Shown here in pieces: positions 15,547-41,808 of a stretch of 41,808 bases of DNA (within the stretch, counting starts at the first letter, position 1; the number at the start of each line of letters is the position of its first letter). The stretch covers positions 1-41,808 of the forward strand of contig JAGKSX010000067.1 of the NCBI GenBank assembly GCA_018993155.1, given 5' to 3'. Source of the DNA: Hydrogenophaga sp. GTDB lineage: Bacteria; Pseudomonadota; Gammaproteobacteria; Burkholderiales; Burkholderiaceae_C. The position numbers were made by a program, and so were the translations under genes. The notes below the pieces were generated by a model, which was not told the origin of the DNA, ran no database searches, and was given only the letters and a program-made list of their open reading frames with translations.

Positions 15547-15626
15547 CCAGAACACCGCGGAACTGGCTTTGCCAGGCCGCAGGTGTTGCCCCGTGGGGGG
15601 AGGCGCCGCAGGCGCTTCGGGGGGAG
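15547..15626 (-). repeat. Intercistronic hairpin element R1 (livH to livM-G)
   Basis: Read on the minus strand after the livH stop, it has a C-rich start, a GCGCC-type hairpin, then a compound stem-loop. The outer arms are AACACC and GGTGTT (15582-15587 and 15551-15556), and the inner hairpin is CTGGC-AAAG-CCAG. It closely resembles R7 at 39443. No T tract follows, so it is not a standard terminator. Confidence 0.75.
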
Positions 15627-15632
15627 CTTCAT

Positions 15633-16673
15633 CTAGTGGTCCTCGTCAGAATGCTTGCTGCTCAGGGACCTGAAGAGCAGAACGGGGAGGATCAGGGTGA
15701 AGACGATCACTTCTTTGAAAGCGCTGGCCCAGAAAGAGCCGAAGGCCTCGATCACACCGACGCCCAGGGCCGCGACCAGCGCGCCCGGGTAGCTGGCGAG
15801 GCCGGCCGCCACGGCGGCCACGAAGCCCTTGAGGCCGATCAGGAAGCCGGAGTCGTAGAACACGGTGGTGGTCGGGCCGATCAGCAGGCCCGAGAGGGCG
15901 CCGATGAAGGCCGCCATGGTCATGGTCAACTGGCCGGAGGCTTGCGAGGAAATGCCCATCAGGCGGGCGCCGGTGCGGTTGACGGCGATGGCGCGCAGCG
16001 CCTTGCCGCGCAGCGAACGCTCGAAGTACAGCCAGAGCATGACGATGAGGGCCACGGTCGCCGCGAAGGTGATGATGGCCTGGCCGGACAGCATGACGGG
16101 GCCTAGCTGGAAGCGCGTGTCCCAGAACGCCGGGTTGCGGAAGCCTTCGGCGCCGAAGAACAGCAGGCCCAGGCCGGTCAAGGCGAAGTGCACGCCGACC
16201 GACACGATCAGCAGCACCAGCGGCGTGGAGCTCTCCAGCGACTGGTAGGCCACGCGGTACACCAGCGGGCCGTACACGGTGACCACCGCCACGCTGAGCA
16301 CCGCCTGCACCCACAGCGGGAACTGCTGCGGCGCGGCCCAGATGGCGACGAGAGAGACGACGACGGGCAAGGCGAGCGTGCGCGCGGCCGCCTTAAGGGC
16401 GATCAGCGCATTGCGCTGGTGCTGCCAGCGGCCGAACAACTCCATCAGCGCGGCCACGCCGGCCAGCAGCAACAGCAGCCACACGGTGCCGGGCACCTTG
16501 CCGGTCTGGAAGATGGCCAGGGTGAGTGCGCCGTACGCGACGAACTCCCCCTGGGGAATGAAGATGATCCGGGTGACGGTGAACACCAGGACGATGGCCA
16601 GCCCCAGCAGCGCGTACACCGCACCGTTGGTCAGACCATCCAACGCCAGGATGCTGGCGATTGAGAAATCCAT
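15633..16673 (-). CDS. livH: Branched-chain-type ABC transporter permease (LivH-like)
   Basis: The 346-residue integral membrane protein has about eight or nine hydrophobic helices. It starts with [20 protein letters not shown], the typical LivH N-terminus, and carries [20 protein letters not shown] and [20 protein letters not shown], matching the conserved cytoplasmic coupling region. It pairs with the LivM half of the next gene to form the membrane channel. It is somewhat longer than typical LivH because of a central insertion (about residues 65-125, including [20 protein letters not shown]). The start at 16673 follows the R2 element. Confidence 0.9.
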
Positions 16674-16709
16674 AAAAGCCTCAGCGCAAGAAAGAGACAC
16701 TCTCGAACA

Positions 16710-16814
16710 GGGACACCGAGGGTCCGGCTCCGCCGGCCCCAGGTGTCGTCCCCCCTCGAAGCGCCGAAGGCGCGCCACAGAGGGGGGAAGCCGCGTCAGC
16801 GGCGCAGGGGGGAG
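16710..16814 (-). repeat. Intercistronic hairpin element R2 (binding protein to livH)
   Basis: This longer variant of the family directly follows the stop of the solute-binding protein gene. On the minus strand it has two G/C-rich hairpins, a CCCCCTC/GAGGGG pairing, and a terminal stem-loop with arms GACACC and GGTGTC (16742-16747 and 16712-16717) around CCGGC-GGAG-CCGG. It is closest in layout to R5. Confidence 0.7.
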
Positions 16815-16821
16815 CCCCGGA

Positions 16822-17955
16822 TCACTCCACCTTGAACTTGCCGTCCACGACCTTGAGCATCACACCGGTCTCATTGGTGAAGCCCCAGTGGTCTTCCTTG
16901 GTCCAGTTCATCACGCCGTGCGAGAACACGGTGCGGCCCATGGTTTCGAGTGCGTCGCGCAGACCGGTGCGGAACTCGGGTGTGCCGGGCTTGGCGGTCT
17001 TCAGGGCGATCGGCACGGCCTTGTTCAGTGCGATGGCGGCGTCGTAGGCGTGGCCCGCGAACTGGTTGCGCATGCCTGGGCCGACCAGCTTCTCGTAGTT
17101 GGTGACGAAGTCCATGGCCACCTTCTTGGACGGGTGGTTGTCAGGCAACTGCTCGGCGATCACGGCCGGACCGGAGACCACGAAGGAGCCTTCCACGTCC
17201 TTGCCACCGATGCGCACCAGGTCGGGCGTGGCGGCCGCGTGCGTCTGGTAGATCTTGCCCTTGTAGCCGCGCTCGACGATGGCCTTGTGCGGCATGGCAG
17301 CACCCGAGCCGGTCGCCACCACCAGGATCGCATCGGGGTTGGCGGCGGTGAGCTTGAGCGCCTGCGGCGTCACGCTGGTGTCGGCGCGCGCGAAGCGCTC
17401 GGCGGCCACGATCTTCATGCCGGCCTTCTCGGCCAGCGGCGTCATGGCCTTGAGCCACAGCTCGCCGTAGGCGTCGGTGTAGCCCAGGAAGCCGATGGTC
17501 TTGATGCCCTGCTTCTTCATGTGCTCGACCACGGCGAAGCCCATCACATCGTTGCCCTGCGGCAGGCGGAACAGCCATTGGTCGGCACCGGGCGGCACGC
17601 CCACCGGCGAAGCGGCCAGCTGCACGGTCTTGGCTTCGGCGGCCACCGGGGCGATGGCCGCGGCCACCGGGGTGAGGGTCGAGCCGATGATCAGGTCGAC
17701 CTTGTCGTCGGTCACCAGGCGGCGTGCGTTGGCAGCGCCCTTGCCCGGGTCGCTCGCGTCGTCCAGGACGATCAGGTTGACCTTCTCGCCGCCGATGGTC
17801 TGCGGAAACAGCTTGAACTGGTTCTGCATCGGAATGCCGAGGCCGGAGCCTGGGCCCGTGAGCGAGAGGATCACGCCGACGTTGATGTCGGCCAGCGCCG
17901 AGGTGCTGGCCAGGGCCGTGACGGCCACGGCGATGAGGGTTTTGACGGCTTTCAT
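16822..17955 (-). CDS. Liv-type ABC transporter periplasmic substrate-binding protein
   Basis: The 377-residue protein begins with a signal peptide ([20 protein letters not shown], cleavage after ALA). A type-I periplasmic binding fold follows ([59 protein letters not shown]). It would deliver ligand to the LivHMGF complex encoded downstream. It belongs to the Peripla_BP_6 group, which includes aromatic-acid binders. The ligand pocket cannot be read confidently, but context points to a hydroxycinnamate or aryl acid. It starts 54 bp after the thioesterase gene, and an R2 hairpin follows, as often between a highly expressed binding protein and its permease. Confidence 0.92.
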
Positions 17956-40486: not shown

Positions 40487-40488
40487 CC

Positions 40489-40920
40489 ATGGCCCTGGAC
40501 AAACCCTATCTGGACGTGCCCGGCACGACCATCTTCGACGCCGAGCAGAGCCGCAAAGGCTACTGGCTCAACCAGTTCTGCATGAGCCTCATGAAGGCCG
40601 AGAACCGCGAGCGTTTCAAGAAGGACGAGCGCGCCTACCTCGACGAGTGGGCCATGACGGAAGAGCAGAAGCAGGCCGTGCTCGCGCGCGACCTGAACTG
40701 GTGCATCCGCCTGGGCGGCAACATCTACTTCCTGGCCAAGATCGGTGCCACCGACGGCAAGAGCTTCCAGCAGATGGCGGGCTCCATGACCGGCATGACC
40801 GAAGAGGAGTACCGCAACATGATGGTCGCCGGCGGCCGTTCGGCCGAAGGCAATCGCGTGGTCGGCGAAGACGGCGATGCGCAGGCGCACCGCCAACCCC
40901 AAGGCAAAGGAAAGAGCTGA
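40489..40920 (+). CDS. pmdA: Protocatechuate 4,5-dioxygenase alpha subunit (LigA/PmdA type)
   Basis: This 143-residue small subunit has the LigA pattern: [40 protein letters not shown] and [20 protein letters not shown], ending [20 protein letters not shown] plus a polar tail. It caps the active site of the catalytic beta subunit encoded next. The enzyme cleaves protocatechuate between C4 and C5 to 4-carboxy-2-hydroxymuconate semialdehyde (EC 1.13.11.8). One base separates it from pmdB. Confidence 0.94.
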
Positions 40921-40921
40921 C

Positions 40922-41788
40922 ATGGCCCGCATCACCGCATCCGTCTACACCTCGCACGTCCCGGCCATCGGCGCCGCGCTCGACCTCGGCAAGACGCAGG
41001 AGCCGTACTGGCAGCCCGTCTTCCAGGGCTACGAGTTCGGCAAGCAGTGGATGAAGGACAACAAGCCCGACGTGGTCTTCCTGGTCTACAACGACCACGC
41101 GACCGCGTTCAGCCTGGACTTCATCCCCACCTTCGCGATCGGCACCGCCGCCGAGTACCAGCCGGCCGACGAGGGCTGGGGCCCACGCCCCGTGCCCAAG
41201 GTGATCGGCCACCCGGACCTGGCCTCGCACATCGCGCAGTCGGTGATCCAGCAGGACTTCGACCTCACCATCGTCAACAAGATGGACGTGGACCACGGCC
41301 TGACCGTGCCGCTCTCGCTGATGTGCGGCCCGCAGGACCCGGTCAAGGGCGCCTGGCCCTGCCCGGTGATCCCGTTCGCGGTCAACGTGGTGCAGTACCC
41401 GGTGCCCAGCGGCCGGCGCTGCTACAACCTGGGCAAGGCCATCGCCAAGGCGGTGGCCAGCTACGACGAGGACATCAACGTGCACATCTGGGGCACGGGG
41501 GGCATGAGCCACCAGCTGCAGGGACCGCGCGCGGGCCTGATCAACAAGGACTTCGACAACGCCTTCCTCGACAAGCTGATCAACGACCCCGAGGCCGCCG
41601 CCGACATCCCGCACATCGACTACGTGCGCGATGCGGGCAGCGAAGGCATCGAACTCGTGATGTGGCTGATCGCGCGCGGCGCGATGGCCGATGCGGCCGG
41701 CGGTCCCCGCCCGAAGGCCGTGCAACGCTTCTACCACGTGCCCGCGTCGAACACGGCGGTGGGCCACCTGATCCTGGAGAATGAGTAA
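40922..41788 (+). CDS. pmdB: Protocatechuate 4,5-dioxygenase beta (catalytic) subunit (LigB/PmdB type)
   Basis: This 288-residue extradiol dioxygenase subunit has the type II Fe(II) site. The ligands are His12 ([11 protein letters not shown]), His59 ([14 protein letters not shown]) and a glutamate in [18 protein letters not shown] (241 or 244). The catalytic histidine is at 197 in [13 protein letters not shown]. It shares the length and motif order of LigB. The Comamonas pmd operon continues with pmdC, the semialdehyde dehydrogenase, which would lie just beyond the window. A hairpin element begins immediately after the stop. Confidence 0.95.
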
Positions 41789-41789
41789 A

Positions 41790-41808
41790 CACCCCCGCCG
41801 CGCTTCGC
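41790..41808 (+). repeat. Intercistronic hairpin element R8, cut by the window end
   Basis: The last 19 bases, CACCCCCGCCGCGCTTCGC, are identical to the first 19 bases of R6 and start 1 bp after the pmdB stop codon. A further copy of the element most likely continues past the window, before the next gene of the operon. Confidence 0.6.

Follow-up and report, generated by a model that had tools for sequence, protein, structure and literature searches.

What is the short hairpin element that recurs behind stop codons in this stretch of Hydrogenophaga sp. DNA (contig JAGKSX010000067.1, positions 1 to 41,808; hereafter the window), and what might it act on? The element is about 80 nt long. A C-run (CACCCCC) at its 5' end is followed by the short hairpin H1, by H2, in which a C-run pairs with a G-run, by the compound stem H3 and by a CTGGA foot. 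H3 consists of a six-pair outer stem, a four-pair middle stem and the tip CCGGC-NNA-GCCGG; judged by eye from column counts and alignment rows, the foot of the element is CTGG(A) on the 3' side and mostly GGGGGC on the 5' side. At about even confidence, we read the family as a formerly mobile element, similar to the repetitive extragenic palindromes (REPs), that has been retained in hairpin form after stop codons and acts on mRNA at 3' ends and between cistrons.

The element is dispersed through the host genome, which comprises 4.9 Mb in a 176-contig assembly. A search for its core, CCGGCNNAGCCGGNTCC, gives 84 occurrences, compared with 4 for the reversed control, and a covariance model trained on 28 copies from the host genome itself finds at least 147 places at E <= 0.001 among the best 150 candidates scored (one window copy, R5, is not among these). 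These counts agree with an earlier note on the window, which had offered REP-like elements as one possibility. Counts per genome are lower bounds throughout, with the best 150, 43, 14 or 106 candidates scored. We examined 152 copies (123 + 29), taken from model places plus core-pattern loci; genes were called by a codon-usage script, not by Prodigal, and start codons are uncertain. H1 forms at least four pairs in all 149 copies that are not cut (3 of the 152 are), through 83 different H1 segments, a count made for H1 alone without shuffle control. Folded whole and compared with 20 dinucleotide shuffles each, the copies have a median z of -2.9, with z < -2 in 77%.

Placement relative to genes is highly regular. 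Both neighbours are codirectional with the element at 84 of the 152 copies (tandem sense), and 41 copies lie at convergent ends. Another 2 are sense with no called downstream gene, 8 are antisense in tandem gene pairs, 2 have an opposite upstream and a codirectional downstream gene, 7 lie at contig ends where no gene is called upstream, and 8 are called inside genes, of which at least two (L113, L010) are gene-caller errors. Among the 137 copies that have a called upstream gene and are not called inside genes, 127 are sense and 10 antisense. The sense copies start -34 to +37 nt from the upstream stop in 125 of 127 cases (median 5), and at one of the two outliers (L096) a missed gene ends 3 nt away; about nine in ten classifiable copies (125/137) are both stop-anchored and sense. 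Within 12 nt of the stop lie 75/84 tandem and 36/39 convergent copies; uniform placement in the same gaps would give 26% and 48%, respectively. Because convergent gaps make either orientation sense to one gene, only the tandem sites, with 84 sense versus 8 antisense, inform orientation. Sense orientation and stop anchoring together point to transcription or translation. The earlier note had named equal orientation, and copies at convergent ends and inside genes, as outcomes that would speak against its reading: orientation is far from equal and 8 of 152 copies are called inside genes, but convergent ends carry copies as often as the base rate of gene ends predicts.

Such close placement invites the idea of a translation-termination element, in which structure behind the stop slows ribosome release and tunes the output of the upstream gene. 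The first C-run starts 0-12 nt past the stop in 115/125 copies, and the first paired base within the 70 nt behind the stop falls at 0-14 nt (5-95%). Escherichia coli offers a precedent: its REPs that lie within 15 nt of a stop reportedly stall ribosomes (Liang et al., via PMC12306157). Of 4,072 predicted REPs, 446 lie within this distance, as did 260 of 496 in an earlier set (PMC12306157). Genes bearing a 3' copy, however, have slightly stronger rather than weaker codon bias, a confounded comparison, and neither the variable H1 nor copies in tandem look tuned. We consider this explanation improbable.

The window copies, each with the gene that it follows, are these:

R1, 15546..15626, minus strand: C-run, H1, H2 and H3, with outer stem AACACC/GGTGTT and tip CTGGC/GCCAG; begins 6 nt past the stop of a permease gene (15633-16673, minus strand).
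R2, 16707..16814, minus strand: extended H2, outer stem GACACC/GGTGTC; begins 7 nt past the stop of a periplasmic binding protein gene (16822-17955, minus strand).
R3, 18462..18546, minus strand: outer stem GATGCC/GGCATC, middle stem GAGG/CCTC; begins 3 nt past the stop of a short-chain dehydrogenase/reductase (SDR) gene (18550-19314, minus strand).
R4, 22526..22608, minus strand: outer stem GATGCC/GGCATC; begins 11 nt past the stop of an enoyl-CoA hydratase gene (22620-23408, minus strand).
R5, 34706..34803, plus strand: extended H2, broken outer stem GCACGC/GCGAGC; begins 1 nt past the stop of a TctC-type gene (33712-34704, plus strand).
R6, 38623..38702, plus strand: outer stem GGCACC/GGTGCC; begins 8 nt past the stop of an amidohydrolase gene (37580-38614, plus strand).
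R7, 39444..39522, plus strand: outer stem AACACC/GGTGTT; begins 10 nt past the stop of a ligK-like aldolase gene (38732-39433, plus strand).
R8 stub, 41789..41808, plus strand: 20 nt that comprise the C-run and the beginning of H1 before the window ends, outside model scoring; directly adjoins the TAA of an extradiol dioxygenase beta subunit gene (40922-41788, plus strand).

All seven complete copies and the stub that the earlier note had described were thus located, between 15546 and 41808, and its description of them stands: they start 0-11 nt past the upstream stop (it had said about 10 bases or fewer), run with transcription, keep the module order and carry the quoted stem variants, including the changed inner stem of R1, with the outer stem broken in R5. 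The covariance model at E <= 0.001 finds 7 copies in the window and none before 15539, in line with the claim that the first 15 kb hold none. The extended H2 of R2 and R5 recurs in some copies elsewhere in the genome. Two further statements hold within the window and fail beyond it. The copies were said to lie between codirectional genes, but genome-wide 41/152 lie at convergent ends. They were also said to occur only in catabolic and transport operons. R1-R4 do lie within a minus-strand run of liv/beta-oxidation type (enoyl-CoA hydratase, AMP-binding enzyme, thiolase, SDR, thioesterase-like protein, binding protein and permeases), and R6-R8 within a plus-strand run containing the ligK-like aldolase and the extradiol dioxygenase beta subunit, which we read as a putative protocatechuate 4,5-cleavage operon. 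Twenty upstream genes drawn at random from elsewhere in the genome, however, include housekeeping genes (Hsp33, YidC, type III pantothenate kinase, a PmbA/TldD-family protein, a DapD-like succinyltransferase, MreD and an Fe-S biogenesis protein) in addition to transporters and dehydrogenases; this rules out a genome-wide restriction to catabolic genes and makes it a local property of the window.

Some details of the stops and starts next to copies were recorded on the side. At R4 (22610-22631), R6 (38605-38622), L030 (~1431) and L062 (~4880) the stop codon lies inside a perfect inverted repeat that the final codons make together with the bases immediately preceding the C-run. With arms of at least 7, such repeats surround 7/127 stops versus 7/461 controls (p 0.017), but p is 0.54 at arms of at least 6 and 0.12 at arms of at least 8, and some are plain C-run/G-run cases; the enrichment is weak at best. 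TAG stops precede 23/125 copies versus 16/201 other gaps of at least 30 nt (p 0.008, uncorrected). In antisense copies (L103:2202, L111:5342, L120:2258, L104:8569, L133:2141 and others) the reversed C-run, GGGGGTG, could serve as a Shine-Dalgarno sequence, and L080:2163, although classed otherwise, resembles the antisense copies near start codons. Within the window, a C-run and hairpin right after a stop codon at 31801-31845 has no model match and is possibly a decayed or truncated copy. A stretch of about 283 bp at 28186-28468 resembles a miniature inverted-repeat transposable element, with 48-bp terminal inverted repeats that are 83% complementary, and a hairpin plus T-run at 28077-28135, resembling a canonical terminator, gives a sub-threshold sbrA match. 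An Rfam search of the window returned no family above its gathering score and four weak matches (E up to 5), none overlapping a copy.

Covariation, which the earlier note had predicted for a larger alignment, is strong. In H3 and H2 of 123 copies, 340 cells have changes on both sides of a pair, compared with 92.9 in shuffles (0/500 reaching 340) and 11-71 with slid partners; 96.1% of the cells in this alignment pair. The larger alignments are fitted to the model structure, so that these pair counts lean towards the model, and the cells are not independent since the copies share ancestry. In a MAFFT alignment of 28 copies, which is not model-fitted, 9 of 20 predicted pairs changed on both sides. 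The outer-stem 5' arm takes 54 different forms among the 151 copies with letters there; 104/152 rows are perfectly paired and 44/152 have one non-Watson-Crick position. At orthologous site 35, the host and a relative of the same genus (G148) differ by AATGCC/GGCATT versus AACACC/GGTGTT, with the rest of the element nearly identical. Because covariation is strong and is also seen between orthologous copies, we conclude from these alignments that the pairing is under constraint. RNAalifold, applied to the 28-copy alignment, pairs the first C-run with the G-run, and single-copy folds of R1-R7 pair the second. By this comparison, two C-runs compete for a single G-run. A candidate fourth hairpin in the 3' tail was rejected, as the foot pairs downstream in 49/152 copies versus 50-61 with shuffled tails.

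Covariation alone does not single out RNA. The earlier claim of selection on RNA rather than DNA is backed mainly by orientation and stop-codon placement; support from mismatches is mixed. In the relatives, G-U exceeds A-C among H3 mismatches (27 versus 6, p 0.0003). In our preferred reading, the element spread by duplication, and copies are kept mostly where the C-run end lies directly behind a stop and the copy is sense to the gene. Transcription of the upstream cistron would run on through the element as a 3' tail, and its three hairpins would act on the mRNA, most likely as a barrier to 3'-5' exonucleases that fixes or stabilises the 3' end of that cistron. An effect of the hairpins on ribosomes as they leave the stop codon is also possible; one has been reported for E. 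coli REPs within 15 nt of a stop.

Several results weigh against this proposal. Without one pair that supplies 18 of the 27 G-U cases, the G-U excess in the relatives falls to 9 versus 5. In the host genome, H3 has 31 G-U versus 22 A-C mismatches (p 0.27), with 16 of the 31 in one pair and 13 of the 22 in one pair, and H2 has no G-U excess in either set (G-U:A-C of 24:30 in the host genome and 24:34 in relatives). The antisense strand folds more stably than the sense strand (mean -49.3 versus -45.4 kcal/mol); sense is lower in energy in 16/149 copies and antisense is better in 132/149. In eight of the ten antisense copies, 3-20 nt separate the C-run end from the point where the opposite gene is called to start. 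Finally, 33 of 100 sampled genera of the host family have no match and copy number rises with genome size (Spearman 0.50, on lower-bound counts), from which we conclude that copies are dispensable. Insertion may also be tolerated only in the short space that separates a stop from the following ribosome-binding site, which could produce the placement behind stops.

This last point leads to the main rival, a selfish or neutral mobile repeat whose pairing is kept by DNA-hairpin movement or copying, or by template-switch self-correction, and whose stop location reflects insertion choice or the only neutral window. Its turnover can be followed in 1.6 Mb of G148, where 42 of the 144 copies with usable flanks are syntenic. 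A script assigned the classes of these 42 sites, with gaps measured between blast matches and not between genes. The same element family is held by 11 sites; 18 have at most 45 nt between the matching flanks, 12 of these being tandem sense sites; 10 have other, longer gaps; 2 (sites 20 and 102) hold a third hairpin repeat of the TTCGACAGGCTCAG type (CCGTTCG..GCTTCGACAGGCTCAGCCCGAACGG); and 1 holds a repeat of the type of BRE (Beta-proteobacterial repeat element). Several of the short sites leave almost no space between the stop and the following start (for example TGATCACATG), and many look like operon interiors. Because presence and absence differ at the same sites between close relatives, copies have been gained or lost.

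Near-empty sites and large differences in copy number are what a selfish repeat would leave, and several other observations fit it: the host-genome excess of G-U over A-C is not significant, copies stand in tandem in some relatives, and the similarity between copies stops at the element, running from the C-run to within about 10 nt of H3 (386 pairs among 144 copies). Gaps without an element are also short (median 23-25 nt), which allows little space ahead of the following ribosome-binding site. Neutrality, on the other hand, does not predict 84 sense against 8 antisense tandem sites, and no target duplication was seen by eye among the listed alignments of syntenic sites. Nor does the known REP mobiliser family, Y1_Tnp/RAYT, track the element. 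The host genome has one Y1_Tnp, on contig C86, where none of the 147 listed copies lies; the four inverted repeats near it do not resemble the element, and a core-like pattern there gave only a coding look-alike. Over 100 genomes Y1_Tnp/RAYT and the element are not associated (Fisher p 0.63), and 6 of 24 genomes with at least 20 copies have no Y1_Tnp match. Given the lone, unlinked Y1_Tnp and the missing association, RAYT transposases do not explain how the element spread. We regard a purely selfish or neutral repeat as possible, if tentatively so.

The same syntenic sites bear on whether the hairpins terminate transcription in the absence of a U tract, as I-shaped or Rho-linked terminators. 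Like Rho-independent terminators, the element forms GC-rich hairpins at gene ends, and its presence at convergent ends and the canonical hairpin with an A/T-run that the relative bears instead at site 108, a convergent one, would suit a terminator. Unlike them, it has no T tract, as the earlier note had remarked in the window and as column counts of 152 copies confirm, and many copies lie between codirectional genes, which in the relative stand close together at twelve of the short-gap sites. Convergent ends are not enriched either: the tandem:convergent ratio is 86:39 with the element and 324:115 at gene ends without it in the same loci (p 0.31), an agreement that also rules out a preference for operons. 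Complete terminators are unlikely because many copies lie between genes that look co-operonic and no T tract follows, and U-less termination as such seems to us a poor prospect.

Is the element already known? We found no description of the family in the openly accessible literature other than, possibly, that of BRE, a repeat of about 90 bp that occurs in tandem in Bordetella and several Comamonadaceae and was described without a function (PMC3110155). Identity with BRE was plausible from that host list. The paper expects two BRE copies on the 3' side of lexA in Bordetella pertussis (PMC3110155), and we found an 82-bp repeat in 1.9 copies on the 3' side of lexA in genome G478, with the same module order as the window element in other letters. 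The BRE letters that we compared are those of this repeat, not the published sequence, and the identity of G478 is taken from the tandem repeat itself. The window-element model has 0 matches in G478, and blastn of two typed consensus queries gave none at the lexA repeat; in these tests the element does not reach the >70% similarity to the Bordetella repeat that defines BRE, and a lexA repeat that is related but different speaks against identity.

The likeness is nonetheless extensive. Both are repeats of about 80-90 bp (within the roughly 75-91 bp described for BRE), betaproteobacterial, GC-rich, mostly intergenic and often in tandem arrays, and both are ordered as C-run, H1, C-run/G-run hairpin and compound stem; the BRE-type stem tip is CTTGGGGCGGCCC, where the window element has CCGGC-NNA-GCCGG. 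The 1.6 Mb of G148 contain 17 BRE-type repeats (tip motif 20 versus 0 reversed), 14 sense and three called inside genes. Nine of the 14 start 0-6 nt past a stop, and the other five, at 83-326 nt, are later array copies; first-in-line copies are thus placed like the window element. One BRE-type copy occupies a site that holds the window element in the host genome. Some published BRE copies overlap the ends of open reading frames by a few bases, and the BRE section of the paper does not state placement relative to stop codons (PMC3110155). An RNA of about 80 nt was seen on Northern blots at one BRE copy, on a strand that the paper's table gives as opposite to both flanking genes (PMC3110155). 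Such a sequence can thus exist as a stable RNA, but this RNA is not in the sense predicted for the window element. The window element family looks like a sister of BRE, with the same placement, and not BRE itself. More speculatively, and we think this rather unlikely, the two could belong to a superfamily of stop-anchored Burkholderiales modules, interchangeable at the same sites, in which the first C-run, under a terminating ribosome, competes with the second for the single G-run and the resulting switch reads translation of the upstream cistron and sets its 3'-end stability.

The comparison with REPs is of a different kind. The window element is a dispersed, extragenic, imperfect palindrome with a covarying stem, as REPs are, and like the REPs and bacterial interspersed mosaic elements of E. 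coli it forms dispersed extragenic hairpins, many of them close behind stop codons. It differs in its tighter placement, its orientation, its three hairpins per unit and its lack of a RAYT link. RAYT-associated REPs carry a GTRG tetranucleotide at the foot of the palindrome, and by eye none was found at the foot of the window element in the alignment rows.

Stop anchoring extends to other genomes. The covariance model search of relatives found a match in 67 of 100 sampled genera of the host family and, at a stricter cut at the level of the order, in 11 of 300 genomes. Four of these are outside the host family, one of them with a single copy near a contig end and 6% contamination. In another family (f4), one genus has a match in 41/41 genomes. 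Placement was scored at 100 loci of other genomes (114 copies, the top-scoring ones of their genomes): 39/46 copies in the host family start -9 to +13 nt from a codirectional stop, and 56/68 in f4 start -17 to +11 nt from one, with 10 of the 12 remaining f4 copies at loci that carry a series of copies. Such tandem copies occur in several f4 loci and one host-family locus (L164). A search with the f4 tandem pattern gave 40/268 genomes, with many listed matches coding and control counts similar in several genomes. The exact f4-type pattern occurs in 30 stretches of named genomes, all Achromobacter or Bordetella, and eight named plasmid records with matches are from Variovorax, Diaphorobacter, Methylibium and one Comamonadaceae strain. 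Five of the plasmid records are annotated at the match, and three are not. In four of the five the match starts 14, 34, 29 and 61 nt past a codirectional coding sequence; in the fifth record it falls within an annotated transposase gene. Those four matches start about 10 nt inside the element, which places the element itself that much nearer the stop. With labels resting on the named plasmid matches for the first type and on the exact f4-type pattern for the second, the element is a dispersed REP-like hairpin of Comamonadaceae-type and Achromobacter/Bordetella-type genomes. Beside it, genus g253 (L288, L289 and further matches) has a related H3-like hairpin, CCGGCAAAGCCGGATCC.., with a TGGATC-type foot, in closely spaced pairs with no evident C-run part within the matched stretch.

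In the host genome, then, copies of a family that has matches in 67 of the 100 genera sampled are anchored to stop codons more tightly than the REPs of E. coli. Its presence and absence between close relatives amount to a natural experiment on the effects of 3' hairpins and on the acquisition of such parts, and its placement suggests that BRE, published without a function, may be re-read as a gene-end element.

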